37,162 nt of DNA from Desulfurococcales archaeon ex4484_58 (GTDB lineage: Archaea; Thermoproteota; Thermoprotei_A; Sulfolobales; Desulfurococcaceae). The translations under genes were made by a program, and so were the position numbers. Positions 8,754 through 37,162 of the stretch are shown here, piece after piece. Position 1 is the stretch's first letter, and each line of letters starts with the position of its first letter. Under the pieces are notes generated by a model. It worked only from the letters and a program-made list of their open reading frames with translations, did no database searches and was not told the DNA's origin. The stretch covers positions 1-37,162 of the forward strand of contig NJDP01000002.1 of NCBI GenBank assembly GCA_002254665.1, given 5' to 3'.

Positions 8754-8763
8754 GGATGGAGAT

Positions 8764-10077
8764 ATGGTTAAGCCCCCAGTTAAAATAATCGTTAAAGAGA
8801 AGCTTAAAGGGGTTATTGAAGGGATCGACTATGAAGACCCTGTTGTAAAGTATAGAGGCTCTAAAGTTTTAAGGATAACTAGGCTTGTAGCTGAGAAAGA
8901 AGTTAATATTCCTCTCTCAATGGCTATTGATGTATTTTATTCATTCTATCTACCAATGCCTATACTTAAATCAATTAATGAGTTACCACAGGATAAAAGA
9001 TACAATTACCATGTGATAAACTCATTGCTAAGATCCAGTTTTATACATGAGATACGTAGTAAAACGATAGTTGATGGTTTGATGAGTAGTATTGCTGCTA
9101 GTATATTCTTAGCTGAATTAAAAAAGCTAGAATCCTCTAAGAAAATAAGTAGTCAAGATAAAAACGAGAAAGGAGGAGAGGAAGGAGAGGAAGTTAGGAA
9201 GGATGTTGAAAAAATAGTTTCTAATCTTGCACGTGATATTGATAATATTAAGAAACTAAGAACTTTGATCGAGGGCGAACAACCTGGTAGTGTTAGTATG
9301 GTTGCATATGAAGAATATGGCCCGGAACTCATAAGACTTGCACGTAACCTCGAAGTTAAGAAGATCCTCGATATACTACTAGGCATAAAGCCGTGGACTA
9401 TCAATATTTCCGAGAAGAAACAAAGATTTAAACATGGAGAGATAGTTGGTTATGAGATCGGTAAAGATATTGAACGGATAGTACCCTCAATACTCGCTTT
9501 ACCGGATGAGCTATTCTACTTAAAATTACTTGAAGGGAAACTATTACTTTACCAGAAATTATTAAGTCAGGGTAGAGGATCACTTTATGTTTTACTAGAT
9601 AAGAGTGGATCGATGGATGGAATGAAGATGATTTGGGCTAAAGCAGTTGCTTTAAGCTTATATATGAGAGCTGTTAAAGAGCGTCGTGAATTCTATTTTA
9701 GGTTCTTCGATAGCGTACCTTATCCTTTAGCTAAAGTTGATAAACGTCCACGTGTCAACCAAGTACTTAAACTTATAGATTACATCGCTAGGATCAGGGG
9801 TAGTGGTGGCACAGATATTACACGTGCAGTCATAACTGCATGTAACGATATACGTAGTGGTAGTGTTGGTTCAACAAACGATATTGTATTGATAACTGAT
9901 GGAGTTGATCGTATTGCTGAACAACTAGTTCAACATAATCTACGTAAAGCGAATGCAAGACTTATAACGGTAATGGTTCTCGGAAATAATAAGAATTTGA
10001 AAAACATATCCACTAAATACTTTACAGTAACTAAGCTTACACAAAAGAATATACTCGAAGTTGTTGAAGCAGATTAA
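8764..10077 (+). CDS. VWA (MIDAS) domain protein, CoxE/ViaA-like
   Basis: MIDAS-like LLDKSGSMDGMK ... GSGGTDIT ... VLITDGVD; immediately downstream of moxR. Confidence 0.92.
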   Translation: MVKPPVKIIVKEKLKGVIEGIDYEDPVVKYRGSKVLRITRLVAEKEVNIPLSMAIDVFYSFYLPMPILKSINELPQDKRYNYHVINSLLRSSFIHEIRSKTIVDGLMSSIAASIFLAELKKLESSKKISSQDKNEKGGEEGEEVRKDVEKIVSNLARDIDNIKKLRTLIEGEQPGSVSMVAYEEYGPELIRLARNLEVKKILDILLGIKPWTINISEKKQRFKHGEIVGYEIGKDIERIVPSILALPDELFYLKLLEGKLLLYQKLLSQGRGSLYVLLDKSGSMDGMKMIWAKAVALSLYMRAVKERREFYFRFFDSVPYPLAKVDKRPRVNQVLKLIDYIARIRGSGGTDITRAVITACNDIRSGSVGSTNDIVLITDGVDRIAEQLVQHNLRKANARLITVMVLGNNKNLKNISTKYFTVTKLTQKNILEVVEAD

Positions 10078-19130: not shown

Positions 19131-21101
19131 TTAGACTGGATTATCTGGAATATATGGTTTTACATATATTTCTTTAATAATGTTTTTAATAACATGATTA
19201 TTTGAAACTATTGATGCTTCAACATATTGTTTACCACTATATTTAGGTTTAATAACTACTTCCACGGAATAGTTAGAACTTGGTTCTACTACAGCTGATC
19301 TATCTATATTATTATTTGATTCAAATCCGGGACTCACAATCTTTATATTCAGATAAGCCTTATGCTCTAAATCATTCTCTATCTCAATTAAAACCTTTGA
19401 ATCTAGTCCCTCAACTAATTCAGTAACAGGCTTTATATCCGATATTCTAATCTTTGAAAACTTATCATCAAGTGTTTTCTCGATCTCGTTTAACCAAGTA
19501 TTAATTACTTCTGGATACCAGAATTCAGCCCACCAATAATCACTATCAAGTACGTGCCACAGATACCATCTAATCCTCTTACTAGTCTCTACATCTCCTC
19601 TAACTATTTCTTCGTATGCTCTCAATAATTTGTAGGATTCATATACTCTATTCCAGTATTTTTCATGTTCACTTACCTCCCCCCTCCATTTACGGAATGT
19701 TCCGAGCCAAGAATTTGTTGGTATATGTTTTAATACATTATTTACTGGGATCCTCTCATACATTTCTCTAAGTGTAGATAGTTTTAAGTATCCTAGATCA
19801 TTTAATGTTTCAAGATAAATTATGAATTTATCATAGAAAAACGCTGTTAACGGTGGATCGTGTGAGAAAACCATCCAGTTCTCTCCATCTAGAGCTAGAA
19901 CTAGAACCTTAACCGTTTCATCAAACCATTTACGTAGTATCTGATAGCTTAACTCATACGCATTTCTCCAAGCATGTAATTCATTGTTAAAATTGTTCTT
20001 GAACCCAAGAATATCGCTTAAAACATGATCTCTAAAGAAAACAATTAGATGCTTCCCACTACTAGTATCAATTACCATGTAAGGTTTGTACTGTGAATCT
20101 TTTTCACCCTCAGCTCCTCTAAAGTGGTGTAGATCATCTAGAATAGTGTATTTTAAACCTATATCATAGATTATAGGAACTAGTTTCATCGAAAAAGCCA
20201 TTTCAGGCGTCCATATACCTAGTGGTCTATAGTTATTCCCCATAGCTTTCATAGTTATCTCTAAACCATACTTGATCTCCTCATATACTATATCATCCAT
20301 ACCAAGCAGATCCGTTAAGAAACCAGCTATTGTATGTGCATAGATACTAGTTAATACGTCAATTTGTTTATTTCTCAATGCTTCTCTATAGGAGTTAAGT
20401 GTTTCCTCAACCAGCCTAGCCTCTATAGAATCTCTTGAATATTTTTCACCACTAACAAACTCTATTCCTTCCTCTAATAATTTCATCCATTGATATAGTA
20501 GGCTAGGACTTAAATTATATGTTGACTTAAAATTAGGATGATTCTTTAACATCACTGTATGATAGTGATATGGTCCCTTACCATAGGGTTTTAGATGATC
20601 GCCCCAAACATAAATATATGCCCATGGACTATGTATTCTACCATCTGGGTAATAGTTTGGTGCTTGATGGTGATGCCATACTATTGTGAAATAGAATGGA
20701 TCTCTTAAAGCTGGTTCATTAACTATATAGTTGATCTTATCTATCACAGTATTATTAACTAGTAGTTCTAAATGATAAAACCCGGATTTCTCTGGTAAAC
20801 TGTGTGTTAAAGTTAGTATTTTACTTTTATTGCTCTCTAATTTAGTATTTCTATTAAATAACACGTTATCCTCTTCCCTAACCTGAATAGTTACTTCTTT
20901 TGTATCGCCATGATTATAGAGAAGTATATGGATCTTTGCCTCGCTTCCAGGCTTATACCCGGGTTTATCTAATACAATATATGCTTCTACACCATCAATA
21001 ATGTTTACTGGTATTAATGCGGATGTCTTCTTAGACACGATCAAGTCACCAGATTGTCTAGGTAGATTCCTCTGTTTCTCGAACTTCAAGTTTTGTTTCA
21101 C
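19131..21101 (-). CDS. Glycoside hydrolase family 57 protein, cytosolic (alpha-amylase/amylopullulanase-like)
   Basis: FTIVWHHHQAPNYYPDG; LGIWTPEMAFSMKL (nucleophile Glu region); LVLALDGENWMVF. No signal peptide. GTG at 21038 with GGTGA upstream would remove the 44-nt overlap with the next gene. Confidence 0.92.
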   Translation of the reverse strand: MKQNLKFEKQRNLPRQSGDLIVSKKTSALIPVNIIDGVEAYIVLDKPGYKPGSEAKIHILLYNHGDTKEVTIQVREEDNVLFNRNTKLESNKSKILTLTHSLPEKSGFYHLELLVNNTVIDKINYIVNEPALRDPFYFTIVWHHHQAPNYYPDGRIHSPWAYIYVWGDHLKPYGKGPYHYHTVMLKNHPNFKSTYNLSPSLLYQWMKLLEEGIEFVSGEKYSRDSIEARLVEETLNSYREALRNKQIDVLTSIYAHTIAGFLTDLLGMDDIVYEEIKYGLEITMKAMGNNYRPLGIWTPEMAFSMKLVPIIYDIGLKYTILDDLHHFRGAEGEKDSQYKPYMVIDTSSGKHLIVFFRDHVLSDILGFKNNFNNELHAWRNAYELSYQILRKWFDETVKVLVLALDGENWMVFSHDPPLTAFFYDKFIIYLETLNDLGYLKLSTLREMYERIPVNNVLKHIPTNSWLGTFRKWRGEVSEHEKYWNRVYESYKLLRAYEEIVRGDVETSKRIRWYLWHVLDSDYWWAEFWYPEVINTWLNEIEKTLDDKFSKIRISDIKPVTELVEGLDSKVLIEIENDLEHKAYLNIKIVSPGFESNNNIDRSAVVEPSSNYSVEVVIKPKYSGKQYVEASIVSNNHVIKNIIKEIYVKPYIPDNPV

Positions 21102-21441
21102 ATATACTCGGAGAATCCTCTGCTATTTTCTTCCAATCTATTCTCTTCTCAATGATATATCTAAGATGAGACTCCAATAGTTTAAGAGCATCTTCACGTC
21201 CAAGTCTAGTAGCGTTCCAAGTCACGTATGGTGGGTAGAAAGCAGCTGTTTCAACAAACACTTTATTATTCCCTCTATCTACTTTGAATTTAATATAACC
21301 TAATTCTTTAAGATGACAGGCAGGATTTGCACATAATATATCTATTTCACATTGATCCTTTTTTATAAAAACTATTTTATACTCCTCCGGTGAACCATAT
21401 TCTTTACCGCATGGACACTGTAGGGTTTTTTCATCAGACAA
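21058..21441 (-). CDS. Small Cys-containing (possibly zinc-binding) uncharacterised protein
   Basis: CPCGKEY and CANPACH motifs; directly upstream of the GH57 gene. Confidence 0.7.
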   Translation of the reverse strand: MSDEKTLQCPCGKEYGSPEEYKIVFIKKDQCEIDILCANPACHLKELGYIKFKVDRGNNKVFVETAAFYPPYVTWNATRLGREDALKLLESHLRYIIEKRIDWKKIAEDSPSICETKLEVRETEEST

Positions 21442-21602: not shown

Positions 21603-22172
21603 ATGATGGGGTTTGATCGGATGGTTGAAGAAAAAACTGTTCTTTCATTGAATGAAGCTTTATACATGGTTTTTCATAGTATTCGTTTAAGGCTTGGAAG
21701 GATCGTTATAGTTATAGTTGCTATAACAGCTAGTATAGCTTATATGGTTAGTTTAGAGCTTTTAGCAAAAGTTATAGCTTCTAATATGCCTCCGGAAGCA
21801 ATATCTACATACACGTTAATGCTTAGTATAACAGCTATAGTAGTAGCTATAGCTGGTACTATGAATTCATTATTAATAATGATTGGTGAAAGATACCATG
21901 AAATAGGGACTATGAAAAGTTTCGGTGCACGTGATATCCATATATTTGAGTTACTGCTACTCGAGTCACTGATCTTAACAATCATAGGTGGTTTCTTAGG
22001 TTATTTGATAGGTCTTGGAATAGGATATGCGCTTGGAGGTAGCGGTGACCCCCTCTATCTCCTTGGTAAATCAATAGCTGTATCTATAGGTATAGGTTTA
22101 GTAGCAACAATCTACCCCTCCTATCATGCAGCTAAACTAAGCCCGGTTGAAGCACTTCGTATAGAGGTGTGA
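21603..22172 (+). CDS. Minimal FtsX-like ABC permease
   Basis: Four hydrophobic segments; ERYHEIGTMKSFGARDIHIFELLLLESLIL and YPSYHAAKLSPVEALRIEV match the FtsX/MacB signature; short loop instead of a large extracytoplasmic domain. Confidence 0.88.
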   Translation: MMGFDRMVEEKTVLSLNEALYMVFHSIRLRLGRIVIVIVAITASIAYMVSLELLAKVIASNMPPEAISTYTLMLSITAIVVAIAGTMNSLLIMIGERYHEIGTMKSFGARDIHIFELLLLESLILTIIGGFLGYLIGLGIGYALGGSGDPLYLLGKSIAVSIGIGLVATIYPSYHAAKLSPVEALRIEV

Positions 22173-22936
22173 GTCTTTTGAGTAAAGAAGCTATAATAGA
22201 AACTAGGGTTGTTACACGTAAACTAGAATATGTGGTTGAAACAATTGATCTTAAGAAGTATTATAAAATGGGTAAATTTATTGTAAAAGCACTTGATGGA
22301 GTTACTTTCACTATTAAGCGTAGAGAATATGTTAGCATAATGGGTCCAAGCGGTAGTGGAAAAACAACATTATTCAACATGATCGGTGGACTTGATCGGC
22401 CAACGTCAGGTAAAATATATATTGATGGCGTAGATATAGCGATGCTAGATGCATACGAATTAGCTTGGCTCCGAGCTAATAAGATAGGGTATATTTTCCA
22501 AACATTTAATTTAATACCAGTATTAACTGCTCTCGAAAACGTTATGTTACCAATGATATTTGTTGGAACACCATATGATCAAGCGATTGAGAGAGCCCGT
22601 AAACTATTAGAGCAGGTAGGGCTTGGAAAATTCCTACACCATAAACCATATGAGCTTAGTGGTGGACAACAACAAAGAGTAGCCGTTGCACGTGCATTCG
22701 CTAATAATCCATCGATCATATTAGCAGATGAACCGACAGGAAACCTTGATTTAGTTACTGGATTAAATATTATAAAGCTGCTAAAGAAACTCAATGAAGA
22801 AGCAGGTGTAACAATAGTAACAGCTACACATGATCTTAAGATGGTTGATGTAAGTGATAGGATCATATGGATCAGGGATGGAAAGATCGAGAAGATCGAG
22901 TTGAGAAGAGATATTGAAGCGGTGGTTGAAGAATGA
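22169..22936 (+). CDS. ABC transporter ATPase, LolD/MacB type (first copy)
   Basis: Walker [11 protein letters not shown]-loop [31 protein letters not shown]; Walker [17 protein letters not shown] overlap with upstream stop. Confidence 0.96.
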   Translation: MSLLSKEAIIETRVVTRKLEYVVETIDLKKYYKMGKFIVKALDGVTFTIKRREYVSIMGPSGSGKTTLFNMIGGLDRPTSGKIYIDGVDIAMLDAYELAWLRANKIGYIFQTFNLIPVLTALENVMLPMIFVGTPYDQAIERARKLLEQVGLGKFLHHKPYELSGGQQQRVAVARAFANNPSIILADEPTGNLDLVTGLNIIKLLKKLNEEAGVTIVTATHDLKMVDVSDRIIWIRDGKIEKIELRRDIEAVVEE

Positions 22937-23670
22937 CTCGTGAAGTATTGATCAAAGTAATTGATCTGCATAAATACTATTATTTGAGGGGAGGAGTCGT
23001 TAAAGCACTACAAGGGATAAATCTCGACATATATCGTGGAGAATACCTCTCAATACTCGGTCCAAGCGGTAGTGGAAAAACAACATTATTCAACATGATC
23101 GGTGGACTCGATAAGCCGACTAAGGGTAGAGTATTAGTTGAAAACACCGATATATATAGCTTACCTGAAGCTAAACTAGCATATTTCAGGAATAGGAAGA
23201 TAGGATATGTTTTCCAAACATTTAATTTAATACCTTATCTAACAGCATTAGATAATGTTGCGTTACCAATGATATTCGCTGGTATACCACGTAGTAAAAG
23301 AGTTAAGAAAGCCCGTAAGTTATTGGAGCAAGTTGGGTTAGGAGAGAGAATATACCATAAACCACATGAGCTTAGTGGTGGACAACAACAAAGAGTAGCT
23401 ATAGCTAGAGCGTTAGCCAACGACCCATCAATTATATTAGCAGATGAACCAACCGCTAACCTTGATCTTGTCACCGGTAAACAAATAATTAATTTATTGA
23501 AAGAGATATCGATCAACAGAAACGTTACAGTTATAACGAATACACATGATCTTAAGATGATCGATGTAAGCGATCGTGTAGTATATATACGTGATGGTAA
23601 GATTGAAAGGATAGAAGAGAGACAAGTAGTCGAGCTTCATGGAATAATTATTGATTTATCTTCTCAATAA
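22933..23670 (+). CDS. ABC transporter ATPase, LolD/MacB type (second copy)
   Basis: Walker [40 protein letters not shown] overlap with upstream gene. Confidence 0.96.
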
Positions 23671-24199
23671 TACTTCTCAACAATAACCTATTTAATTCAA
23701 CAATATTTCTCCATGCTTTAACAGGGTTTAATGTATAGAATGCTCTAGTTCTACCTATTACAACGAGTGAAGAACCACTAATTCTACCGTTCAAATACTC
23801 TAACATCTCTCTATCAACTCTCTTAATAATTAACTCCTCATATAGAGTTCTCAATATCGATTTTCTCATATCACTAGTTCTTATTAGTTCATCTACTAGT
23901 TCATATAATAAACCCCTACCTCTAACCATGATCTTCGAGCCTATGCCTAGTATCCCCTTCTTAATCCTAATCCTCGCTTCCCCAAGATCACCGATCTCTT
24001 GTTTCGATTCGTATACAGCTATCGTCACATAGTATTGTTCTGAAGTATATCTAGCAAAATATCTACCTATAAAGAAGTATGTTAAAAAAGACTCATTAAC
24101 ACGGAGAATAGATGCTCCTCCGCGATCATATATAATTTCTGCTTTCTCTCCAAAAATCCTCTCTAATATACGGGCTTCACCGGATCGTCTCTTGAACAA
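23648..24199 (-). CDS. Uncharacterised protein
   Basis: 183-aa ORF of normal composition filling the space between neighbours; 3' ends overlap convergently with the ABC operon by 23 nt. Confidence 0.65.
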   Translation of the reverse strand: MFKRRSGEARILERIFGEKAEIIYDRGGASILRVNESFLTYFFIGRYFARYTSEQYYVTIAVYESKQEIGDLGEARIRIKKGILGIGSKIMVRGRGLLYELVDELIRTSDMRKSILRTLYEELIIKRVDREMLEYLNGRISGSSLVVIGRTRAFYTLNPVKAWRNIVELNRLLLRSIIEKINQ

Positions 24200-24228: not shown

Positions 24229-26751
24229 TTATTTCTTCTTCACAAATTTAATTACTATTAATATCAACGCAATGATCCATAATGTAATCGTTACATATAA
24301 TGCTATAGTTACTAGATCGAATCCTTTAGTTTGACTTGTCTTCTGTGAAACAGTTACTCTACCCTTAAATATATTGTTTTCTAGTTCTGGATCGTATGAC
24401 GATCTAATCGTTACATTGTATATGTATGTTCCTTCACTAAGATCTATTTTTATGATCTGCGTAGTTGAATGCTCTCCTTTATAGATCGTTGCATTCTTAA
24501 CTATTTCTTTACCAGCAATATATAAGATAATAGTTATTGGAACGTCATATTCGACAGGTTGTTTATTGCTTGTTAGAGCTGTTATGGTAAATACGTATTC
24601 GCCGGGGGGAGTTGGAGATAATCCTGCTCTACTACCGTCTGGTGCTTTAACAAAAACCGAAACCTCTAGATCAACTGGTTGATATACATTATACCTATAC
24701 TCTCTACTGTATAAATAATACAATTTACCTGCAACAATTGATCCAGGATTATATATGTTAATAAATAGTGTTATCTTATCTACACTTCTAGGTCTAAAGA
24801 AAACAGTTAAGGTATGCCGTGATCCCGGCTCTATACTTACCTCCACTAATGTAGAGTTTATATTTGATACTTTAACAGAGATCTTGGTATCTCTCATAAT
24901 ATAATTATTTTCATTAATTATCGAAACATACGCTTTATTTATTACCTCGTTTACCGGGTTCTCTGGTTCTAGAGTTATAGATAATTTTATTTTGAATATA
25001 TTGTTGAAGTCTTTATCAAATTCTCTAAGCCATTCCTCAATATATGTCCTCGAGAAAAACTCTGCCCACCAGAAATCACTATCCATAGCGTGTATTAAGT
25101 CGTAGACAGTCTGGTTAAACCATGTATTACGCTTTATTTCTAGACGGAAGCCTTCATACGATGTAATGTCTTTATAGTATAGGTAACCCTTATACTTAGC
25201 TATTGCTTGACTCATTTCATCCCATACAATCCTATGTTCTTCACCTCTCTCAGTAGTCCATTTACCCCATCCACCAAGCCAGCTAGTGCTAGGTATACTT
25301 GTTAATATTCTCTGTGGTGGATGAACTCTTACAGCATCTTCGAATGTCCCGCTTTCCATGATCCCTTGTAATGTTAGTTTATCAAGGTAACGATAGATGC
25401 GGTCAAGAAATAACGCTCCGTTACCAGTTGATGGCGCAAATAATATCCAGTTTTCACCATCAGCTGCGATAACGTGTATTGGTTGGTATTGATAGTTCTT
25501 AAACGAGTGTGTATTGTATATCTCATAGTATAAGCTACGAGCATCACGATCAGCTTGTCTAGGATCATCCCAATCTTGATTAGTAAACCCTATGAATCCA
25601 TCACTTATTCTCTGATCTCTAAAGAAAACTATTAGTTCACGTCCCATCTGATCCCTTATAATATATGGCTCGAAAATCGAACTCTTATCTCCCTGAGCTC
25701 CGGGGAAGTGATGTGTACCGTCTAGTACAGTATATTTTAACCCTAGATCCAGGTATATAGGTATGAGTTTATCGCTCCAAGCCATTTCAGGCGTCCAGAT
25801 AGCATCTGTATCCACTATTAATTCTCTTGTAGTGTTTATTCCAAGCTCTATATCATACTTTAATAGTTTATCTATACCATATCTATCAATATAGTAGCCC
25901 ATAATAGTGTGTGCAAAAACTGATGTCATAATATATACGCGACCTTCTTCATGGAGATTATGAAGCCCTTGAAAGAAGCCATGAATCACATTAGTTAATG
26001 GGTCGCCGGGTTTAATGTTCTTTGTTTTCTGAATGCTCGGATCATATATAGTGAATCCTTTTTCATAAGCTAATTCTAACTGGTATATTAGGCTTGGACT
26101 ATAATGTAGATTAACTTTTATGTTAGGATACTTTGTTAGTAAATAGTAGTGTAAATAATAGGTACCCATATCCGGAAATATCGGTTCACCATATACTTCA
26201 TCTAATGAGAAATATGGTTGTAAATTATCCTGGAAGAAATGAACTATATGCCAGTTAGCAAAAAAGCCTCCATCTGGATGATAGTTTGGACCCTGATGAT
26301 TATGCCATACGAATAGGATCATCGGCTTAATGCCGGATGGAGGACCTCCTCTAATCCAGAAATCAACTGTGTCTTCAATAACTTTTACACCATTAACCCA
26401 AATCTCCATTTTTAAATTATATGTCCCGTCACCAATGTTTTGAGGTAATGTTATAGTATGTGATCTGACAAGTAAGAATCTCTTCTCAGATACTGGTGGA
26501 ATAGTTACCTGGATATCTGGTATTGAGGGGGCATTAGGTAGGTCTAGAAAGTATAACTTAATAGTTGCTTGTATAGGAGAGTTTTCTTGTGGATAAATAA
26601 ATATTTCAGCAACCATTTGCTGGCCTGGTAGATAGATTGGTGAATCTGTAGAAATAAATGCATAGAGACTAGTTGTTTGTGTATCTATGGTTAATGGTGT
26701 TGATATAAACATTATTGATAAAAACAATACAATCGTTAATTGCATCTTCAA
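24229..26751 (-). CDS. Secreted, membrane-anchored GH57 glycoside hydrolase
   Basis: Signal peptide MKMQLTIVLFLSIMFISTPLTIDTQ; LFVWHNHQGPNYHPDGG; AIWTPEMAWSDKL; VIAADGENWILF; C-terminal TM LYVTITLWIIALILIVIKFVKKK. Confidence 0.93.
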   Translation of the reverse strand: MKMQLTIVLFLSIMFISTPLTIDTQTTSLYAFISTDSPIYLPGQQMVAEIFIYPQENSPIQATIKLYFLDLPNAPSIPDIQVTIPPVSEKRFLLVRSHTITLPQNIGDGTYNLKMEIWVNGVKVIEDTVDFWIRGGPPSGIKPMILFVWHNHQGPNYHPDGGFFANWHIVHFFQDNLQPYFSLDEVYGEPIFPDMGTYYLHYYLLTKYPNIKVNLHYSPSLIYQLELAYEKGFTIYDPSIQKTKNIKPGDPLTNVIHGFFQGLHNLHEEGRVYIMTSVFAHTIMGYYIDRYGIDKLLKYDIELGINTTRELIVDTDAIWTPEMAWSDKLIPIYLDLGLKYTVLDGTHHFPGAQGDKSSIFEPYIIRDQMGRELIVFFRDQRISDGFIGFTNQDWDDPRQADRDARSLYYEIYNTHSFKNYQYQPIHVIAADGENWILFAPSTGNGALFLDRIYRYLDKLTLQGIMESGTFEDAVRVHPPQRILTSIPSTSWLGGWGKWTTERGEEHRIVWDEMSQAIAKYKGYLYYKDITSYEGFRLEIKRNTWFNQTVYDLIHAMDSDFWWAEFFSRTYIEEWLREFDKDFNNIFKIKLSITLEPENPVNEVINKAYVSIINENNYIMRDTKISVKVSNINSTLVEVSIEPGSRHTLTVFFRPRSVDKITLFINIYNPGSIVAGKLYYLYSREYRYNVYQPVDLEVSVFVKAPDGSRAGLSPTPPGEYVFTITALTSNKQPVEYDVPITIILYIAGKEIVKNATIYKGEHSTTQIIKIDLSEGTYIYNVTIRSSYDPELENNIFKGRVTVSQKTSQTKGFDLVTIALYVTITLWIIALILIVIKFVKKK

Positions 26752-26805: not shown

Positions 26806-28773
26806 TTAATAAATGTATAGCCATAGACTCTTAGTAATCAATGATATAGCTACTGCTAGAGAGATCATTAATCCTTCACCTAAACCTAGACCAGCCGAGA
26901 TCACTGCTATGTATTCTTTAAACCATTCAGGCCCTTTCTTTCTCTCAAGTATCCTAGCAATTACTCCTCCAATAAACATTGTTATTGTGAATGATATTGG
27001 TTGACTCATACCGATAGTGAAACCGATGAGTTCGAATGGTATATTAAATACTTTAACACCCGCAACTATCAAGCCACCAATAAAGAATGGGATAAGTATT
27101 CTTGTACTCCAGTTTTTAAAGTGGTCAAGCAAAGCATTCGCTAACTCGTTACCAGTAACTCCAAGCCTACCACTAGTCCATGCAGGCCATAATAGTGTCC
27201 ATAACGCAGCTATTCTCCAGAAAACAGCTGTTGCTGGATAAGTCGAGCTTGGTATCGGGGCTATTCTCCAAAATATATCAGCGTATATGAAGCCCATTAG
27301 ATAAGTTAATGGGAATGCTATGAAGTATGCTTTTAAATAATCGCTTTTCCTAGTATTCGTCCAATCACAAGCAACATATACTGCCGTCCATCCACTAGCT
27401 CCTCCATAAACATATATTGGTGTAAACCAAGCAGCTATACCACGATAACCACTAGCTAGTAAAGCCCCCTCCTTAATATATGGTAGACTAATACCTACAG
27501 CAGCTTCTCCGATAGCACGTGTATTTGCTAATTGGAATAGTGTTGAGAAACCAACTATTAATGCTATGAATAATACTAGAAACTGTGGTGTAGCATATTC
27601 TGGTTCAGTTATATAGATTAGATAATATACGAAGAAACTAAGAGCAATCGCCGATACTAGATATATTATAAGCGATAACCTAGTTAACGGTATACCTAAA
27701 ACACGCGGTTCCTCGATAACCTCACCCCCACTACCCCTAATCTTCGGCGGCCTAAATACTCTAGCAACACTTCTCCAATTAATGATCATAGGTGCTAATC
27801 CAGCTGCAAAACTTAAACCTATAAGTGGACCTACAAATAACTGTACTAGTCCATATTGGAAAATATCTCCCAGATTCATACCCGGCCTCCATAACGTGAA
27901 CCAGTTATTACTTACAGCTAATGGAGCATATATTAGGTAAGCAAATATTCCACCAATAAATATTGAGAGATTAACTCTCCAAGGCATGATCATACCTACA
28001 CTAATCAATAGTAGATCAAGACTTAAACCAAAACTAGCCCCATAGAAACCCATAGCTTCGATCGAAGATGTAAAATCAGCCCATGGAACCGGTAATAATT
28101 GGACTCCAGTAATAAACCATATACCATAGAGTAGGAATGCATAGAGGAAACTAAACACAGCTACACTAACCATTAATCTAGCTTTATCTCTCCATACATG
28201 CTTCTCTGCTAACACTATACTAGATTCAGCCCATACACGTGCACCCGGGAACGGTAGTTTCTCTTCAACAGCATATATTCTATATAGTACATATGCAAGG
28301 CTTAGATCCATCCCTTTAGTGAGTAGAGCTGATATTAGAGCAACTATTAGTGGAGGTATAAACACTGCTTGAAACAATGTACGGGGTAACTCAACCTCCG
28401 ATGGAGCATACCAGAAAGGTATTTTACCGAATAAACCAAAACTACGTGCATACTCACTCGTAGCTATAAACCATGCAAGTACAAGATTTATTCCAAATAA
28501 ACTCTCAGAAATAGTCGTACAAACATTACTAAACAATATAAATGCTTCTTGACGTGTAAGCTTAGCACCCATAATAACAGCTATTGTTGTGAATAATAGT
28601 AGAGTAGTATATTCAGCTGAATTTATGATCTGCCATGGATTAAGACCCGTTACTAGATTCAACCATATAGCTGCTGGTTCAAACACTAGTACACCATATA
28701 GTATAGCTAATAATACTCTCCATGTAAAACCAGAACCCTTACCCACACCCATGTACCGCACACCTTGTCTCAA
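26806..28773 (-). CDS. OPT-like (DUF6785/DUF6784-type) multi-pass transporter, paralog B
   Basis: Many TM segments; VEEKLPFPGARVWAESSIVLAEKHVWRDKARLMV resembles the LPFP-containing motif of OPT-like proteins. Confidence 0.6.
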   Translation of the reverse strand: MRQGVRYMGVGKGSGFTWRVLLAILYGVLVFEPAAIWLNLVTGLNPWQIINSAEYTTLLLFTTIAVIMGAKLTRQEAFILFSNVCTTISESLFGINLVLAWFIATSEYARSFGLFGKIPFWYAPSEVELPRTLFQAVFIPPLIVALISALLTKGMDLSLAYVLYRIYAVEEKLPFPGARVWAESSIVLAEKHVWRDKARLMVSVAVFSFLYAFLLYGIWFITGVQLLPVPWADFTSSIEAMGFYGASFGLSLDLLLISVGMIMPWRVNLSIFIGGIFAYLIYAPLAVSNNWFTLWRPGMNLGDIFQYGLVQLFVGPLIGLSFAAGLAPMIINWRSVARVFRPPKIRGSGGEVIEEPRVLGIPLTRLSLIIYLVSAIALSFFVYYLIYITEPEYATPQFLVLFIALIVGFSTLFQLANTRAIGEAAVGISLPYIKEGALLASGYRGIAAWFTPIYVYGGASGWTAVYVACDWTNTRKSDYLKAYFIAFPLTYLMGFIYADIFWRIAPIPSSTYPATAVFWRIAALWTLLWPAWTSGRLGVTGNELANALLDHFKNWSTRILIPFFIGGLIVAGVKVFNIPFELIGFTIGMSQPISFTITMFIGGVIARILERKKGPEWFKEYIAVISAGLGLGEGLMISLAVAISLITKSLWLYIY

Positions 28774-28834: not shown

Positions 28835-30886
28835 TTATGCTGAGATAAGTTTTGGTGTTACATATGATAACCATGTCATGAAGAAACTTGATATAACTAG
28901 TCCAGTCATTAATGGTACAATGTATTTCTCATAACCCTCAAATCCAAGTATTCTTATAACAATAAGCTTTACAATTAAAGCTATTACATTCGGTATAAAC
29001 ATTAATACACCGGTTACCGGCATATCACCGATCAATACACCTATTGGACTGAAGGGTACGCCGGGTATGAATGTTCTAAGTATTACTAAGAAGAACCCTA
29101 TAATAATACCTACAATATATTGTGGAAACCATAGCCAGTGATCATTGCTCATATGAGTGATCTGGTTTTGATGAACCATAGTATCTACCCATGTAGGCTC
29201 TAATCCACGATCAGGTCCTCCAACCCATTTACCACCGACAGTACCGTATAACCCATAACTATACATACCCCATAGATTCAGTATAAACGATATTATTATA
29301 CCCATTAAAACAGCAAATGAACCGATCACAACGATTTTACGTATATGCATATTATTAACTTTAGCTAATCTAAAGCCCTCCATAATAGCTGGGCCAGGTA
29401 CTGTAGCTAGTGTACGATCAGTGACTAATGGATAAAACGATGATGCAGCTGCAAATGCTTCGCGTGAATACCATCTACCAGACAATCTATATGGCAACCA
29501 GGGTAATACTAAGTGTTCATGATACCATGGACCATATGTGTATAGAGCGGTTGTCCAAGTTGTTTCCGCTCTAATCCTCATCCACGTAATATATAGTAGT
29601 AGAGCGATCAAAGTTACTAGTAAAGCTATGTGTGGTTCAACGCCAGAGACACTCAAGAGTATCCATGCTAGTATAAACCCGGTTAACCCAAATATTACTC
29701 CAAAGAATACTTCTCGATCCCTCCTCCAATTACTTATGTGTTTCCACGTTAATAGAAACCAGGCTATCGGGAAACCTATAGCTATACCACGTGTAATCAT
29801 GTGGGGCATTAAACCATACCAGTGACCGATCGTGAAATAGTTTGTATGTGCATCCTGTGTTTCAGTTAATGGTACAATACCTAGACTAACCTCGATAAAT
29901 GGTAACAAAATATACATTAATGCATACCATATAATAGCTGTTATTAAGACATCAAGAGGCATTAAAAACGCTAAACCAATGAATAACGGTGCTACTGTAA
30001 CCATTAATGCAACATTATTCCTAATATACGGTGATAAATCATATCCTCCCTGAGCAGAGACTAGAAGCGATCCATACAAATCTGGTAATTCAGATAAGAT
30101 CTTTAGAGAATATAGTAGATTTGGTAGTAGAGCTAAGAAACCAATTAACAACCCGACACCAAATAGTATTTTAGAACTACCACGATGCTCCCATGCACCA
30201 CGGAAACCAGTTGCTCTCATAACTTCAACAGCCATCTGTGCATATGGGAATGGAAGCATCTCCTCATCGATCCATGGTTTCCTAAACATTAACGCTACTC
30301 CAATCTGAGCTATAGCTAGGAATAGAAACACTAATATCCAAAGGATAAGCGATGGTAACCAAGCACTAAGTATTATTGAGAACCAATTAGGATCCTTTAA
30401 TAATATCTCTCTAGCAGTCTCATTAAACATCGGCGCTAATGCATGCATTGTTACTCCATTAACCGTTATATTCCCTTTAGGAACCCATAGATCGGGCATT
30501 AACTTCCCATTATCGCTGATCGATGGTGCTCCTTCAACCATGTATGCATAATGAGCTAGTAGAAAGCTTGATGAGAAAGCATATCCAGCACTAGCACTTA
30601 TAGCTATATATATTAATATAGAATCCCCGATCGTTAGGGATAATCTAGATTTCAATAGACTAAGTATAAGTTTAACCAGTAGGTGTAGAGCACCGATTAC
30701 AAGCAGTAATATTAGTCCCGGCCATGCCCATACCCATTCCATGAATGTATCGGGCCATATTAATCCATACATGAGAGTCATCAGTATAGGGGCTACTATA
30801 GCCATTATAATAGCTAATATAATACCCGCAATAGTAGTACCAGTCGGTTCAACCCCCCATATAAGCTTCCTAGATTCCTCCCCCAT
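28835..30886 (-). CDS. OPT-like (DUF6785/DUF6784-type) multi-pass transporter, paralog A
   Basis: Many TM segments; FRKPWIDEEMLPFPYAQMAVEVMRATGFRGAW. Confidence 0.65.
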   Translation of the reverse strand: MGEESRKLIWGVEPTGTTIAGIILAIIMAIVAPILMTLMYGLIWPDTFMEWVWAWPGLILLLVIGALHLLVKLILSLLKSRLSLTIGDSILIYIAISASAGYAFSSSFLLAHYAYMVEGAPSISDNGKLMPDLWVPKGNITVNGVTMHALAPMFNETAREILLKDPNWFSIILSAWLPSLILWILVFLFLAIAQIGVALMFRKPWIDEEMLPFPYAQMAVEVMRATGFRGAWEHRGSSKILFGVGLLIGFLALLPNLLYSLKILSELPDLYGSLLVSAQGGYDLSPYIRNNVALMVTVAPLFIGLAFLMPLDVLITAIIWYALMYILLPFIEVSLGIVPLTETQDAHTNYFTIGHWYGLMPHMITRGIAIGFPIAWFLLTWKHISNWRRDREVFFGVIFGLTGFILAWILLSVSGVEPHIALLVTLIALLLYITWMRIRAETTWTTALYTYGPWYHEHLVLPWLPYRLSGRWYSREAFAAASSFYPLVTDRTLATVPGPAIMEGFRLAKVNNMHIRKIVVIGSFAVLMGIIISFILNLWGMYSYGLYGTVGGKWVGGPDRGLEPTWVDTMVHQNQITHMSNDHWLWFPQYIVGIIIGFFLVILRTFIPGVPFSPIGVLIGDMPVTGVLMFIPNVIALIVKLIVIRILGFEGYEKYIVPLMTGLVISSFFMTWLSYVTPKLISA

Positions 30887-30966: not shown

Positions 30967-33900
30967 TTAAATATTCAATTTCATATCCTTAAAGAACACA
31001 TGTGCTTTCTCGATATAGCTCTTCTTATCCTCGATATGGAGCGTTCTCCATAATAGTAGTTGTTTACGTAGAGCATCTATGAATACTTTATTAGATTTAA
31101 TCCATATCCTCCTATTACCAGTTAATCTCTTCAAATAAATACTTATATCCCATTCACCCGGTTTAGTCTCAACCGCTCTAATCTGGAAGACCTGCTTAAC
31201 ACCAGCATGCCATGGTTTAAGCCTAGCTTCACCCTCTAAAACAACTACACTCTTACCCCCTACCTCGGATCTACTAACACCTAATTTTTCAACCACAAAA
31301 CTCCCTATATCTGGGCTTGTAAATCCACTTATATACTCGTATACATAAGTATATACACCAAGTAATTCCCTGAATGTAGTCAATTTAAATGGTAGAGGGA
31401 TTAACCACTCATCACCTGATGGTTTAGTTGGGTACTCCCATTTTCTACGTAGACTAGGTAAAGCCATTCTCCCAGCTTTAAATACTGGATATATAGACGC
31501 TAACAATACTGCTATGAAAGTAGTTGATAGAGCTAATAATACGTATCCACTACTATAATTTGGTTTAAATACTTGAGGCATAAGTGCAGCAGCTATATTC
31601 GTTAAAACTATACCTAGTGAAAAACCAACTACTGTAGCGATCAAAGCGCATGCTAATGCTTCAGCTATAAACATCAACCCGATCTGGGTAGGCGATAACC
31701 CTAGAGAAGCATAAATATATATTTCTCGTCTCCTCTCATATATGCTTCCAAGCATAACTCCTAAGATAGATATACTAGCTATTATAACCGGAGCAATTAT
31801 ATAGTTGAAACCAGCACCTTGTAAAGCAATCAATCTAGAATACTTCGATACACCCCTAACAGTACTATACATGTAGGTATCAAGTGATGGTAGAGTAAAC
31901 ATTATTTCTCGACTAATACTGTAGGGATCATACCTAGTTCTAGAAGAGATCTGAGCCAATATAAAGGCTACACCCTTGCCCATCCAAGGATCTTCTTTAA
32001 CGATCTTCGAAGGTATAAAAGCAACTCTCAAAGCATGTGCACGAGGAAAACCTATTACTGGCGTAATTGTATGACCATCAAGTTCACGTATTCCAAGAAT
32101 TCTACGATCATCATATACACCTACGACTTTAAACTTTACACCAGCCAATACAACCGTCTTATTTACATCGATCGCTCCATTAGTTGTATTAATTGTAGAG
32201 TATGGAATTATTATTGAGTAAGTATCATTTTCATCAAACCATCTACCCTTCACAATATATTTAGAAATATTAGTTATTCTATCCTCGAAAACCTCTAAAC
32301 CAACAACACCTTCTAATGAATGGTATTTTGTTGGATCATCGTATAAGAATATATAGATAGAGCTTGATGACCAATATCTAGCAATCGTCTCATTACTAAT
32401 AGCTACCTCTACAACGTCTAAAACCATATCGCCCAATGGTAAATTGCGATCAATTGTTTCTCTTTGAAACATAAAACCAGATGGTCTCGTTGGAGTATAT
32501 CCAGTTATCCCTATAGGTTTTGGAGCTACATAACTAGATAAGCTTGTGAATAAAACTACACTTATAACGACTACGATCAAAGTTATCAATGTAAGTATTG
32601 TTCTAAGTTTTCTTCTTTTCATATGTTCTACTCCATAACTGAAAGCTACATAGCTAGTAGCTATCCTACTCCTCTCAACCTCATGTATACCAACTTTCTT
32701 CCTCCTAATTTCTTTCAAGGCATTATTGAAATCACTTAATAGTATGAGTAGTGCTGGAATAGATAGTATAAGCATTATGAAACCAATGATCGACATAATA
32801 GCATTAACTGTTAGATGAAAAGCTGGATGTAGTAGAGCAAATATTAACGCTATTATAACCGATATACTTATAGCTTTAATAACTACTTTAAGCGGATTAT
32901 CGCCTGGCTTACGTAGATATAATCCTAGTATAAAAGCAAAAAATACTAGGAGTACAGAGAATAGTATAGCTGTATTCTCTACGTCTAAATATGTTGATTT
33001 CATTAATTTGTATGCATTAAATGTTGCTGTTAAACCCATACATATATATGCTCTATATTCCTGGTACTTATGTTTTAAGAGAGCTTCAGTAGCATTATTT
33101 AATGCATTTAGACCACGTGATAAAAACTCATCAACTGCTGGATTAACAATTCTATATTCTGCAAGCCTATCCATACGTTCTTTAACAATACTTAATGTAT
33201 CATCTAATGCATCATATAAACTATAAATATGATTAGGTAAAGCATCTTCAATAACATAATATACTGGTTCAGGTCCAAAAACTAAACTATACTCCATCAA
33301 ACGATCAACATATGCTATAAAAAACCCTGTTTCATCTAGAAACACCCAGTAATACTCTGGTTCAGCTAACGTATCTAATCTAACAATTTTATATCCAATA
33401 CTACCACCTTCTAATGGTGTCTGGTAAGTGATAGGATCTACTACTAGATTCAATGATATAGAACCATTATACTCTACGATCCAAACCTCCCACGGTGCCT
33501 GATAAGAACCTAAAACTGGTTGATTAATAGAAACTGTTGAACCACGAGAAACTGAACCCATAGCATTTAAAGCTAATACTTTACCAGTATCAGATAAAAC
33601 TAAAGCAGTAATCTCTAAGCTTGTCGCACGAGAACTATGTAGCCCTGATACCTCGAAATAGCCTTTCTCATCAGTAAACATTACTAAACGTATATTCCAC
33701 GGACTGGTTGTTTTTATCCTTGAACCAGCGCGGATCATAACTAATGCTTTATCGAAACCAGCACGATCAAGAGATACTCTTTGACCAAGACTAGGTATCC
33801 AAACCATTACCTGACCTATAAGCTTAGTAAACATCTCGTTACGTCCACTAACACTTGTACGTACAGGTGCGCCGGGAGATAAACCCTTGGATATACATGC

Positions 33901-35370
33901 TGCTAGTTCGTCTGGTTTCTTAGAATACAGTATATCTAAGAAAACATCCACCAACCTATACTGAATAGCTACATTAGTGAAGTTAACATAATCGATTAGA
34001 TCACGCGGAGTTGCCTGGAATCCCTTCTCTGCAAAAGCTGATTTCAAAGTAAATGCTGGTAAACCAGAGCTCCAGAAAGGCTCAGTATCAAGCCAGTAGG
34101 GACCAGGAAATAAAACCCACCATGAGTTAGGGTCTTTAGAGTATAGGAGCAACTGTCTTATCTTATCCCCAAAACCTGAACCAAATATTTCCGCGACTCT
34201 ATCCTTTACTATAGAGCTACTATATACTTCATCTATAAATCCAGCATAGAGGTTTAACGGCCCATAAGTTATACCTATAGCTTGAGCTGTATAGAAGTAG
34301 CCTATACTTGTTGGTGCTATGTAATGTGAATTAGAGTTTATATCTATCCCTACATAAATTGTTTTATCTGGATCAAGCTTAATACTCTTATTCCCGAATA
34401 CCAGCTTATTATTATTAAACAAGTATTTTTCAACAAAATACCTATGACCAACTAATCCCTCATAGTATCCAGAAAACAATATTATTAATGTATCATATTT
34501 GGGCTTATCTCTACTATACTTCTCCGCTAAACCGATAAGATAAGCTGGAGCTAATAAATCATTTGCACCCGGTGCATAACCTATTGCTGGAGACCATGAA
34601 TCATAGTGTGTAAGCAATACTATCTTATAATCATGGTTTTCACCGGGAAAATAAGCTATGATGTTAAAAGCATTTGTTTCTATCCATCGAGAAGATAATT
34701 TTAAGTAACCATAGGTACCGTTTAGGTCTATTAACGATGAATTATATTTCACTTTAAGTTCTCTACATGAAATATATCCTAATGGGAGATTAACCGGGGC
34801 ATCTAAATACTTATCATACATTCTACCATTAATAGTATCATCTGAATCATAGAAGATAATAGCTTTTACACCAATATATGGATCTAGTAGCCAGAGCCAT
34901 TTCCAATCAATACCCATATCGATGAATACAATCGAATCCCTTAGATCAACACTATTCAGATCTTCAAGCTTCCTCGCCACAACTATCCTACCACTATATT
35001 CTCCATTAACCGGGACACCCCCACTAGGCCAGATCGGATAGACTTTTATATATAACCCATTAACTTCAAGATAACTACCATTATCTACTGGAACCACGAT
35101 CGTATAGTTATCCAGTAACACGTTACCATTAGTTAAATTATAGAGTCTACGGTAAAGATAATTGGTTACATTATAGTATCCATTATGTCCGGTCAAACGA
35201 TCACTTATATTTGAAAGATCATATATAGTATCTAAAATAGTCTTATTAATCAATAGATCTCTTAATAAAAACTCGCTATAACCACTACCATAGACCATGG
35301 GTTTAATCGGTGAAATAAGGGAAATAAATAAAAATAATAAGATTAATGTAAAAATAGCTTTCTTAAACAT
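30967..35370 (-). CDS. Giant fusion: secreted M28-peptidase-like domain + beta/linker region + MacB/FtsX-type permease
   Basis: Signal peptide; M28-like IVLLTHYDSWSPAIGYAPGANDLLAPAYLIGLAEKYSRDKPKYDTLIILFSGYYEGLVGHRYF; C-terminal FtsX signature SILGVMLGSIYERRREIYIYASLGLSPTQIGLMFIAEALACALIATVVGFSLG ... SIYPVFKAGRMA. Confidence 0.88.
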   Translation of the reverse strand: MFKKAIFTLILLFLFISLISPIKPMVYGSGYSEFLLRDLLINKTILDTIYDLSNISDRLTGHNGYYNVTNYLYRRLYNLTNGNVLLDNYTIVVPVDNGSYLEVNGLYIKVYPIWPSGGVPVNGEYSGRIVVARKLEDLNSVDLRDSIVFIDMGIDWKWLWLLDPYIGVKAIIFYDSDDTINGRMYDKYLDAPVNLPLGYISCRELKVKYNSSLIDLNGTYGYLKLSSRWIETNAFNIIAYFPGENHDYKIVLLTHYDSWSPAIGYAPGANDLLAPAYLIGLAEKYSRDKPKYDTLIILFSGYYEGLVGHRYFVEKYLFNNNKLVFGNKSIKLDPDKTIYVGIDINSNSHYIAPTSIGYFYTAQAIGITYGPLNLYAGFIDEVYSSSIVKDRVAEIFGSGFGDKIRQLLLYSKDPNSWWVLFPGPYWLDTEPFWSSGLPAFTLKSAFAEKGFQATPRDLIDYVNFTNVAIQYRLVDVFLDILYSKKPDELAACISKGLSPGAPVRTSVSGRNEMFTKLIGQVMVWIPSLGQRVSLDRAGFDKALVMIRAGSRIKTTSPWNIRLVMFTDEKGYFEVSGLHSSRATSLEITALVLSDTGKVLALNAMGSVSRGSTVSINQPVLGSYQAPWEVWIVEYNGSISLNLVVDPITYQTPLEGGSIGYKIVRLDTLAEPEYYWVFLDETGFFIAYVDRLMEYSLVFGPEPVYYVIEDALPNHIYSLYDALDDTLSIVKERMDRLAEYRIVNPAVDEFLSRGLNALNNATEALLKHKYQEYRAYICMGLTATFNAYKLMKSTYLDVENTAILFSVLLVFFAFILGLYLRKPGDNPLKVVIKAISISVIIALIFALLHPAFHLTVNAIMSIIGFIMLILSIPALLILLSDFNNALKEIRRKKVGIHEVERSRIATSYVAFSYGVEHMKRRKLRTILTLITLIVVVISVVLFTSLSSYVAPKPIGITGYTPTRPSGFMFQRETIDRNLPLGDMVLDVVEVAISNETIARYWSSSSIYIFLYDDPTKYHSLEGVVGLEVFEDRITNISKYIVKGRWFDENDTYSIIIPYSTINTTNGAIDVNKTVVLAGVKFKVVGVYDDRRILGIRELDGHTITPVIGFPRAHALRVAFIPSKIVKEDPWMGKGVAFILAQISSRTRYDPYSISREIMFTLPSLDTYMYSTVRGVSKYSRLIALQGAGFNYIIAPVIIASISILGVMLGSIYERRREIYIYASLGLSPTQIGLMFIAEALACALIATVVGFSLGIVLTNIAAALMPQVFKPNYSSGYVLLALSTTFIAVLLASIYPVFKAGRMALPSLRRKWEYPTKPSGDEWLIPLPFKLTTFRELLGVYTYVYEYISGFTSPDIGSFVVEKLGVSRSEVGGKSVVVLEGEARLKPWHAGVKQVFQIRAVETKPGEWDISIYLKRLTGNRRIWIKSNKVFIDALRKQLLLWRTLHIEDKKSYIEKAHVFFKDMKLNI

Positions 35371-35443: not shown

Positions 35444-37162
35444 TTATTTCTTCTCACCTTTAACCATGACAAAGACTATAGTAATTACTGCGAGTACCGC
35501 TATAACTCCAATCCACACCAATAATCCTCCACCAAACCCTCCAGAAGAATATATTACTTGAACCTCATATATACCGCCTTTCTCGAGAGTTATTGTTGCT
35601 TGAGCATAATCATCTAGAACCTCAAACTTAACCTCTTTATTATTTACAAGTATTTTATCTAGGCTATAGATCCCAGCCTTCACTGGAACCTCGATTAAAT
35701 AAGTGCCTGGAGTCTTTAAACCCGGTTTGGGAGGCGAAAACCTTAGATCAACTACTGTTATATTCCTTGATTCGGGTTTAGATGTATCACTATATACCAG
35801 CTCACCAGCATCTGTATATACTGTAAAGTTTATATCCCCAGCTTGCTGTGGTAAACCAACACCATCCGGTGTCACGAACAATAATATGATCTTAGCTAAT
35901 TCTCTAATACTAAACTTTAACTTTACAGTATCACCTTGCGATAAAGTAATATTTACTTCTGGAGATTCCACTAGCGTACCATTAGGCAATATCCATCCCT
36001 CAAACCTAAACTCGCCGAGACCATCAATTGTAACTCCAGTCTCGGGATCGATCTTTAATCGATAAGTAGTGTTTGTATATGGTATCTTCAATACAAACTT
36101 GTCACTCTTGATCTCAACCTGGTTATATAGATCCCCCGTATATACATCAAATAGTAGTATAGTTGATTTAGGTATACCTTTTCCACCTTCAGTAACGATC
36201 TCAACGTTAACATCATATTTCAATTCAACAGTAACAACCTTACATGGTATACGCGGTGAATAATCTGGACTATAGAAGTTCTTATTATATAAGTCACTAG
36301 GCATACCTAATTGTTTAATATAATAATAGTGGAGGGGGCCAGCATAGATCAGCATATGATATTCCTCGGAGGATCCGGGATCGATTGTTACTGCTCTAAA
36401 CTCTATACGAATACTACTATCCGGTACACCTCCAGTAGTGCTTTCAAACCATACATGACTAGTTTTACCTATAGTCTCGTTATCAACCATAAATAATCCA
36501 AGCATAAAACCCCATGGCGAAGGCTCTGTTGATGCATCATATATACCTACACCTTTAACCATACCATGATAATCGAAAGCTTGAAAATCGATCCCGGAAG
36601 CACCGCGTGGAACAGTTGTTATATTATTATCAGTCAACCATACAAAACGCATATCATTGTCTGGTTCACCTATTTTAGCTACAAGTTCGACCATTGGCCC
36701 AACGGGTCTGCCCCAAGCATCAGATAAATTTAGTACAATCTGCGATCCACCCTCGTTTATGAGTGTCATGTTGAATTCTATGATAAATGAAGCATTCCAT
36801 ACTCTATAGGTTTTCACAACTTTTAACCCACTCAATGGGTCTGGGAGTGAATACGTTATCCTTAATAATGTATAGTTTTCCGTCTCTTCTAATACTTCAT
36901 AATTTGCTGATGCACCAATAGCTAAACCATACCATGGATCACCAGTAGTTATAATATCCCACATAACAGTCTCTATAGTAGGCATTCCACCACCGCTTCT
37001 AGTAGATTTTATACCCTCTCTAGCAACTGGCGTACCAGAGAAATCCTTGTGTATTGCAACGATATTCTGTATTGCACCACCATTAGCTAGATCCCATGTT
37101 ATCTTAAGGAAATCATTATCAACAATTAATTTGTTATCACTAGCTGTTATCGAAGAACTAGT
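35444..37162 (-). CDS. Surface protein with YidC-periplasmic-like beta domain, C-terminal TM anchor (N-terminus beyond window)
   Basis: Frame is open past the listed start 36985 to the window edge (TSSSITASDNKLIVDNDFLKITWDLANGGAIQNIVAIHKDFSG...); C-terminal TM LLVWIGVIAVLAVITIVFVMVKGEKK. Confidence 0.7.
   Translation of the reverse strand, partial: TSSSITASDNKLIVDNDFLKITWDLANGGAIQNIVAIHKDFSGTPVAREGIKSTRSGGGMPTIETVMWDIITTGDPWYGLAIGASANYEVLEETENYTLLRITYSLPDPLSGLKVVKTYRVWNASFIIEFNMTLINEGGSQIVLNLSDAWGRPVGPMVELVAKIGEPDNDMRFVWLTDNNITTVPRGASGIDFQAFDYHGMVKGVGIYDASTEPSPWGFMLGLFMVDNETIGKTSHVWFESTTGGVPDSSIRIEFRAVTIDPGSSEEYHMLIYAGPLHYYYIKQLGMPSDLYNKNFYSPDYSPRIPCKVVTVELKYDVNVEIVTEGGKGIPKSTILLFDVYTGDLYNQVEIKSDKFVLKIPYTNTTYRLKIDPETGVTIDGLGEFRFEGWILPNGTLVESPEVNITLSQGDTVKLKFSIRELAKIILLFVTPDGVGLPQQAGDINFTVYTDAGELVYSDTSKPESRNITVVDLRFSPPKPGLKTPGTYLIEVPVKAGIYSLDKILVNNKEVKFEVLDDYAQATITLEKGGIYEVQVIYSSGGFGGGLLVWIGVIAVLAVITIVFVMVKGEKK

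Follow-up and report, generated by a model that had tools for sequence, protein, structure and literature searches.

Locus and architecture of the fusion protein

The stretch of DNA analysed here (the window) is 37,162 nucleotides of contig NJDP01000002.1 from Desulfurococcales archaeon ex4484_58 (GenBank assembly GCA_002254665.1), an archaeal genome that is incomplete and 1.43 Mb in size. Its minus strand carries a gene (P0001) in which an M28-peptidase-like ectodomain is fused to a MacB/FtsX-type permease, and the named close relatives of the product in the public genome collection are Desulfurococcales. We find that the catalytic Glu-Glu pair of the M28 domain is missing in all homologues aligned and that the gene lies beside OPT-family transporter genes in archaea and bacteria. 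The features of the fusion gene are as follows.

30967..35370, minus strand: M28-like ectodomain fused to a MacB/FtsX-type permease, 1467 amino acids (open reading frame; Pfam M28, MacB_PCD and FtsX; orthologues)
35287..35370, minus strand: signal peptide, residues 1-28 (hydropathy)
33811..35289, minus strand: putative pseudo-peptidase ectodomain, residues 28-520, predicted PA-like plus M28 fold (AlphaFold2, Foldseek, hmmsearch)
34462..34467, minus strand: Y302-Y303, site of the catalytic Glu-Glu pair (pair missing in 72/72 homologues)
34012..34014, minus strand: A453, site of the zinc-ligand His of the YH..D motif (profile and sequence alignment)
32716..32991, minus strand: three extra membrane helices, residues 794-885 (hydropathy)
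31465..32613, minus strand: FtsX unit, residues 920-1302, with helix 1, a MacB_PCD-like extracytoplasmic domain and three helices (Pfam, hydropathy)
30970..31461, minus strand: conserved C-terminal tail, residues 1304-1467, predicted cytoplasmic (orthologue identity)

An original prediction, made from the letters of the window, described one frame of this length that begins with a signal peptide and an M28-like domain and ends in a MacB/FtsX-type permease, and the reading frame, hydropathy and Pfam agree with it. The frame is single and uninterrupted with an ATG start; a frame error or pseudogene was ruled out as the frame is open and conserved in orthologues, and contamination of one metagenome-assembled genome was ruled out by orthologues in single-contig genomes (G013 and G022) and in many independent assemblies. 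Pfam reports Peptidase_M28 at residues 236-322 (22.4 bits, cut-off 21.3) and FtsX at residues 1195-1302 (41.4 bits). The MacB_PCD match at residues 924-1089 has 24.4 bits, slightly below the cut-off of 27, and the same domain passes the cut-off in the relative at locus L124. Seven membrane helices are predicted by hydropathy after the signal peptide (~794-822, 825-859, 849-885, 920-951, 1185-1212, 1227-1265 and 1272-1297). With an FtsX domain and an extracytoplasmic domain between helices 1 and 2 of the FtsX unit, the protein has the layout of a Type VII ATP-binding cassette (ABC) permease. The tail is 57-70% identical between orthologues and 42% in the divergent relative from genome G011.

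Fold and catalytic residues of the ectodomain

Modelling of residues 28-520 by AlphaFold2 with 55 homologues gave a predicted local distance difference test score (pLDDT) of 92.2 and a predicted template modelling score of 0.92; the reliable model covers this segment, an earlier one of residues 36-800 with seven close sequences having reached a pLDDT of 59. The top structural matches of the model in the PDB by Foldseek are M28 aminopeptidases (2ek8, E 3.7e-23), the transferrin receptor (E 1.9e-19) and glutamate carboxypeptidase II (GCPII). A profile of the relatives searched against PDB chains by hmmsearch gave 2ek8 at E 3e-34, the transferrin receptor at 7e-16 and nicalin at 2e-13. The predicted fold of the ectodomain is thus M28.

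The M28 motifs quoted in the original prediction are exact: THYDS (H255, D257), PGAND (D271), GYYEGLVGH (Y302-Y303), VGIDI (D343) and LDTEPFWSSGLPA (T429). The first metal ligands are kept as it had claimed, with H255, D257, D271 and D343 unchanged in 7/7 sequences (the fusion protein and six orthologues, full-length or near it, which share 46-62% identity with it and its residue pattern). Replacement of the catalytic Glu-Glu pair by two tyrosines is likewise borne out: the site reads [Y/H]-Y in the same seven, and position 429 is T or S. Replacement of the His of the 'SDH' motif by Thr was right as to the residue (T429) but not as to its role as a zinc ligand. In the Streptomyces griseus aminopeptidase chain the SDH His is residue 205, and Tyr246-His247 stand in a later 'YH..CD' motif, of which we take His247 to be the zinc ligand; the SDH His was therefore rejected in favour of the His of the 'YH..D' motif. 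The residue aligning with this ligand-His site is A453 ('QATPRD'; in the profile alignment 2ek8 has 'WYHTPND' and the family 'yvgtPld'), so the true ligand His would be lost as well. Of the five metal ligands, H255, D271 and D343 are present, and the Glu ligand (Y303) and the His ligand (A453) are missing. Going by these alignments, the Desulfurococcales clade retains a formally complete metal site (H255, D271, D343) and has lost the second site together with the general base; for GCPII, Glu424 has been described as an essential proton shuttle (PMC9768917). In place of the intact Glu-Glu and His site that had been named as refuting a pseudo-peptidase, the alignments give Y302-Y303 and A453.

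The loss extends beyond the close orthologues. A Glu-Glu pair was sought in 72 aligned homologues from archaea and bacteria and found in 0/72, as it had been lacking in 27/27 relatives of an earlier, smaller alignment. D257 is retained in 72/72, H at 255 in 31/72, D at 271 in 17/72 and D at 343 in 54/72. The ligands drift in the wider family, with Y, R, F or N at the H97 position and E, S, Q or N at the D117 position. A stand-alone M28 protein of the same genome (contig C44) and its relative L013 retain the His, Asp, Glu-Glu, Asp and YHT motifs. Loss in all 72 fusion-family homologues with retention in the stand-alone protein shows that the loss is inherited and specific to the fusion family. 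The pseudo-peptidase reading of the original prediction is hence strongly supported at the level of alignments. Its alternative of an altered metal site is disfavoured because the remaining ligands drift freely and no metal site is conserved family-wide, and a single metal may be bound by H255, D271 and D343 in the Desulfurococcales clade alone.

Distribution and age of the fusion family

Within the class the ectodomain was found in seven genomes only, all of one family. Strong relatives occur in 50 of 398 genomes of the phylum, mostly as open reading frames of ~1500 amino acids, and a genome often has two or more of them. P0001 alone gave no match when the genome collection was scanned. A scan with patterns from the FtsX part of a seven-sequence alignment (A7), a 27-sequence alignment being too diverse for patterns, yielded 80 loci that were kept, nearly all metagenome-assembled, from archaea (Bathyarchaeota, Brockarchaeota, other Thermoproteota and a Hodarchaeote, an Asgard archaeon) and bacteria (Armatimonadetes, Planctomycetes, Desulfobacterales, Sumerlaeota, Poribacteria, Lentisphaerae, Verrucomicrobia and others). 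Bacterial examples also carry M28, MacB_PCD and FtsX on a single chain by Pfam. In an unrooted tree, 44 archaeal and 28 bacterial sequences are parted by one split (support 0.995), a pattern that speaks against recent transfer from one domain to the other; the family is old. In one bacterial member (L126:6844-11745) the pseudo-peptidase ectodomain contains an inserted F5/8 type C (galactose-binding-like) domain.

Neighbouring genes and the conserved cassette

The fusion gene is set among the following neighbours in the window.

35444..37162, minus strand: surface protein with one C-terminal membrane helix and a weak YidC-periplasmic/GH36-N-like beta-sandwich match, truncated by the contig end (Pfam, hydropathy)
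28835..30886, minus strand: DUF6785 protein, a divergent OPT-superfamily transporter (OPT-B; Pfam E 8.6e-28)
26806..28773, minus strand: OPT-family transporter (OPT-A; Pfam PF03169 E 9e-16)
24229..26751, minus strand: secreted GH57-family protein (Pfam E 1.4e-22)
23648..24199, minus strand: 183-amino-acid protein, family unassigned, beside the ATPases in three orthologous loci (locus comparison)
22933..23670, plus strand: LolD-type ABC ATPase 2 (Walker A and LSGGQ)
22169..22936, plus strand: LolD-type ABC ATPase 1 (Walker A and LSGGQ)
21603..22172, plus strand: mini-FtsX, 189 amino acids, probable partner permease without a large ectodomain (Pfam FtsX E 2.4e-17)
21058..21441, minus strand: 127-amino-acid conserved protein adjoining mini-FtsX (beside it in orthologous loci)
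19131..21101, minus strand: second GH57-family protein (Pfam E 3.5e-27)

The association with OPT-family transporters is the strongest clue and is missing from the original prediction. Among loci with at least 2.5 kb of flank, an OPT-like gene lies within 5 kb of the fusion gene in 63 of 69 (29/31 archaeal, 34/38 bacterial), and the count is 22 of 23 where 5 kb is available on both sides. As the loci were selected by patterns of the FtsX part, they were not picked for an OPT neighbour, and since the gene orientation varies among them the cluster is not one frozen operon. The DUF6785 and OPT-A groups match each other in profile-profile comparison (100%, E 2.3e-39), bacterial OPT-A members are not recognised by Pfam, and a PDB sequence search with the OPT protein found no relative.

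Besides DUF6785, the usual partners are mini-FtsX, LolD-type ATPases, a PqqD-like protein and an unnamed family, A307. In the 398 phylum genomes DUF6785 is present in 47 of 50 fusion carriers against 6 of 348 non-carriers (p 1e-50), the two occurring together in 47 genomes and apart in 9; for mini-FtsX the figures are 43/50 and 17/348 (p 3e-36). Among 40 genomes of the family, mini-FtsX (E <1e-50) is found in exactly the seven that carry the fusion (naive p 5e-8), on a different contig from it in four of them, and A307 is found in the identical seven. Mini-FtsX stands next to a LolD-type ATPase in 5 of 8 phylum loci inspected; in the window the two ATPases are ~7 kb from the fusion gene on the opposite strand, and 11 of 15 bacterial loci with both flanks have a LolD-type ATPase and a second FtsX gene inside the cluster. 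This co-occurrence supports the link to a mechanotransmission-type ABC complex that had been suggested earlier. Separately, a second class of large FtsX proteins (~1000 amino acids) is found beside or near the cassette in several archaeal genomes (L101:4384-7356, L116:9194-12256, L201:7427-10480 and L158:4606-7566), with a Pfam M28 match in 0 of 3 scanned, and one archaeal cassette contains a stand-alone M28 protein (L120:14887-16908, E 7e-23).

A307 proteins have 280-340 amino acids with conserved Trp, Cys and His and no significant Pfam match (alignment A10), and accompany the cassette in archaea and bacteria (L191:8990-9859; L124:18232-19131). Adjoining them are small PqqD-like proteins (L191:8617-9015; L156:6505-6945), a domain type that normally binds peptides in pathways for ribosomally synthesized and post-translationally modified peptides. 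A further, weaker PqqD-like protein lies in the window itself at 2394-2705 (minus strand; E 2e-4, slightly under the Pfam cut-off). The YidC-like surface protein gene is the conserved upstream neighbour of the fusion gene in orthologous loci. PqqD and A307 are at the end of contig C37 in the genome of the window and directly upstream of the YidC-like gene in orthologous genomes, so C37 probably continues the window. From starch synthase to OPT the order seen is PqqD, A307, a 115-amino-acid gene, YidC-like, M28-FtsX, DUF6785 and OPT. In Staphylothermus marinus glycogen synthase is Smar_1393, and the OPT protein Smar_1400 was called a peptide transporter by family (PMC2678158). As the gene order fits these numbers, the cassette of this species is very likely Smar_1394-1400.

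Substrate clues

The cluster of the window is set among GH57 genes, and GH57 and starch synthase genes lie beside A307 and PqqD on contig C37. For other archaeal loci, flank genes were chosen by a position rule (32 picked, 20 scanned), and 8 of the 20 are carbohydrate-related (GH66, an apiosidase, two GH42-type, a CBM4_9 protein, TrmB and two GFO/IDH/MocA oxidoreductases); none of these 20 proved to be a peptidase. Hand-picked neighbours, which are not a fair sample, include GH127 with an FGGY kinase, GH28 with a GH95-like protein, GH1, GH78 and enolase-superfamily proteins. The gene context, with gene frequencies taken without a background comparison, favours glycan-derived oligosaccharides over peptides as the ligand. 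At two loci (L090:3-1712 and L114:16699-19617) a GH57-like protein also matches the YidC-periplasmic-like domain seen upstream in the window, which suggests that this domain may bind or process glycans.

Proposed system and alternatives

The fold, the loss of catalytic residues and its conservation, the gene linkage and the co-occurrence were computed here. From them we infer the pairing with mini-FtsX, the powering by the ATPases, a physical complex, the handover, its inward direction and the substrate. At a probability of roughly 55%, the fusion protein is a receptor-permease subunit of a combined ABC and OPT uptake system. In a Type VII (MacB/LolCDE-like) ABC machine it would act as the large permease subunit, with a retired M28 peptidase as its outer domain; having kept the fold but lost the general base and the second metal site, this domain should bind instead of cutting, like the transferrin receptor of the same fold. 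Most likely it pairs in the membrane with the 189-amino-acid mini-FtsX, the neighbouring LolD-type ATPases would power the pair, and the machine would cooperate with OPT and DUF6785, the two OPT-superfamily transporters of the neighbouring genes. Secreted hydrolases may free a ligand that the ectodomain catches; on binding ATP, the LolD-type subunits would move the FtsX helices and ectodomain (mechanotransmission), and the ligand would be passed to the OPT pair and carried inward. In Type VII ABC machines ATP moves outer domains rather than passing substrates (PMC12646458). The wider proposal, that archaea and bacteria share an old undescribed class of uptake machine, is tentative, and we hold it at clearly less than an even chance. 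In such a machine an ATP-driven mechanotransmission ABC pair, its receptor a dead peptidase, would supply an OPT pair mainly with oligosaccharides, and duplication would have given several copies per genome for different glycans.

Several points weigh against the proposed uptake system and its glycan ligand. To our knowledge, the substrates established for OPT families are peptides and metal chelates and do not include sugars. The Foldseek template modelling scores are 0.43-0.50 with a large root-mean-square deviation over the whole chain despite an E of 1e-23, and as these scores are moderate the M28 assignment rests on the E-values and the agreement of sequence and structure. Metal-site residues were mapped by sequence and profile alignment, not three-dimensional superposition, and all seven close orthologues have H255, D271 and D343, where a single metal may bind. 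The co-occurrence p values ignore shared ancestry, and in most archaeal loci the ATPases are not adjacent to the fusion gene. The carbohydrate-gene counts around the loci are raw counts, and the functional roles as a whole come from computation. Characterised Type VII ABC systems normally pass no substrates through the membrane (PMC12646458). The window also carries a subtilase gene, and for S. marinus both peptide fermentation and a peptide OPT have been reported (PMC2678158).

The points on the subtilase and on S. marinus lead to the alternative that survives best, in which the composite system is the same and the dead M28 domain grips peptide N-termini, with the OPT pair importing oligopeptides. 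The descent of the ectodomain from M28 aminopeptidases, the PF03169 match of a family whose name suggests oligopeptides, the S. marinus report and the subtilase (S8; 1344 amino acids, 15018-19052, minus strand, near the GH57 genes), a candidate source of peptides, all speak for it. It is set against the many glycan enzymes among the neighbours in several unrelated lineages and the absence of peptidases from the position-sampled flank genes, and we regard it as a minority prospect. Harder to maintain is a LolCDE/MacB-like envelope-maintenance or export machine that extracts lipids, lipoproteins or small molecules, for which the OPT linkage would reflect a shared regulon and not a machine. Characterised Type VII systems do act at the outer face and do not import (PMC12646458), and at a planctomycete locus (L174:4211-7330) a 1040-amino-acid protein with weak LptC/LptD_N-like matches lies upstream of the M28-FtsX gene; relatives of this protein were seen at L178 and L187. 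But the OPT linkage holds in two domains of life despite changing orientations, mini-FtsX lacks a large outer domain like that of MacB or LolC/E, and archaea of the host family are not known to have an outer membrane, which make such a machine improbable. Very improbable is catalysis, as a metallopeptidase or another hydrolase, at a remodelled site with a single metal bound by H255, D271 and D343, residues that belong to one of the two M28 metal sites and are invariant in the orthologues, since the Glu-Glu pair is missing throughout and, at the retention counts given above for 255, 271 and 343, catalysis cannot be the shared function.

Comparison with known systems

The proposed receptor-permease resembles MacB, LolCDE and YbbAP-TesA in its FtsX fold (a helix, a MacB_PCD-like extracytoplasmic domain and three helices) and in the probable use of LolD-type ATPases. 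YbbAP likewise joins an FtsX permease to a hydrolase partner (PMC12646458), but here the hydrolase-fold domain lies in the same chain and is predicted to be dead. The fusion protein further differs from MacB, LolCDE and YbbAP by three extra helices and the long conserved cytoplasmic tail, and its system by a probable partner FtsX that is a mini protein and by the link to OPT transporters. Transferrin receptor 1 (M28B, with GCPII) is an M28-fold receptor that binds and does not cut (PMC9768917). Like the fusion family it has a small residue at the ligand-His site of active relatives, while it is eukaryotic, spans the membrane with one helix and lacks an ABC permease. Their likeness shows a shared M28 ancestry, with losses that may have arisen independently. 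The receptor serves as a comparison for how the fusion protein could work, not as a statement of membership. Nicalin is another M28-like protein within a membrane complex, but of the eukaryotic endoplasmic reticulum and without FtsX or OPT. The best structural and profile match, the bacterial M28 aminopeptidases 2ek8/BSAP, share the PA-like plus M28 architecture but are stand-alone active enzymes with an intact zinc site. Both cassette transporters belong to the OPT family (PF03169) and DUF6785/DUF6784; the OPT transporters known to us act alone, whereas those of the cassette are linked to ABC parts.

The component families are known, and the combination appears undescribed: no description of the system was found in the open-access papers searched for M28 with FtsX, DUF6785, or OPT with FtsX. 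There is a real chance of a new class of system. If the proposal is true, Type VII ABC and OPT proteins, two superfamilies studied separately, are parts of a single conserved system found in archaea and many bacterial phyla, and its receptor arose from a peptidase, much as the transferrin receptor did in animals. DUF6785 would gain a function, and so would a family of ~1,500 residues that automated pipelines would label as a peptidase. Uncultured microbes of sediments and hot springs would have a further route of uptake, and ecological studies would be cautioned against counting these genes as peptidases.

Elsewhere in the window, at 7590-10077 on the plus strand, a MoxR-type ATPase is followed by a VWA-type protein, both judged by sequence appearance.

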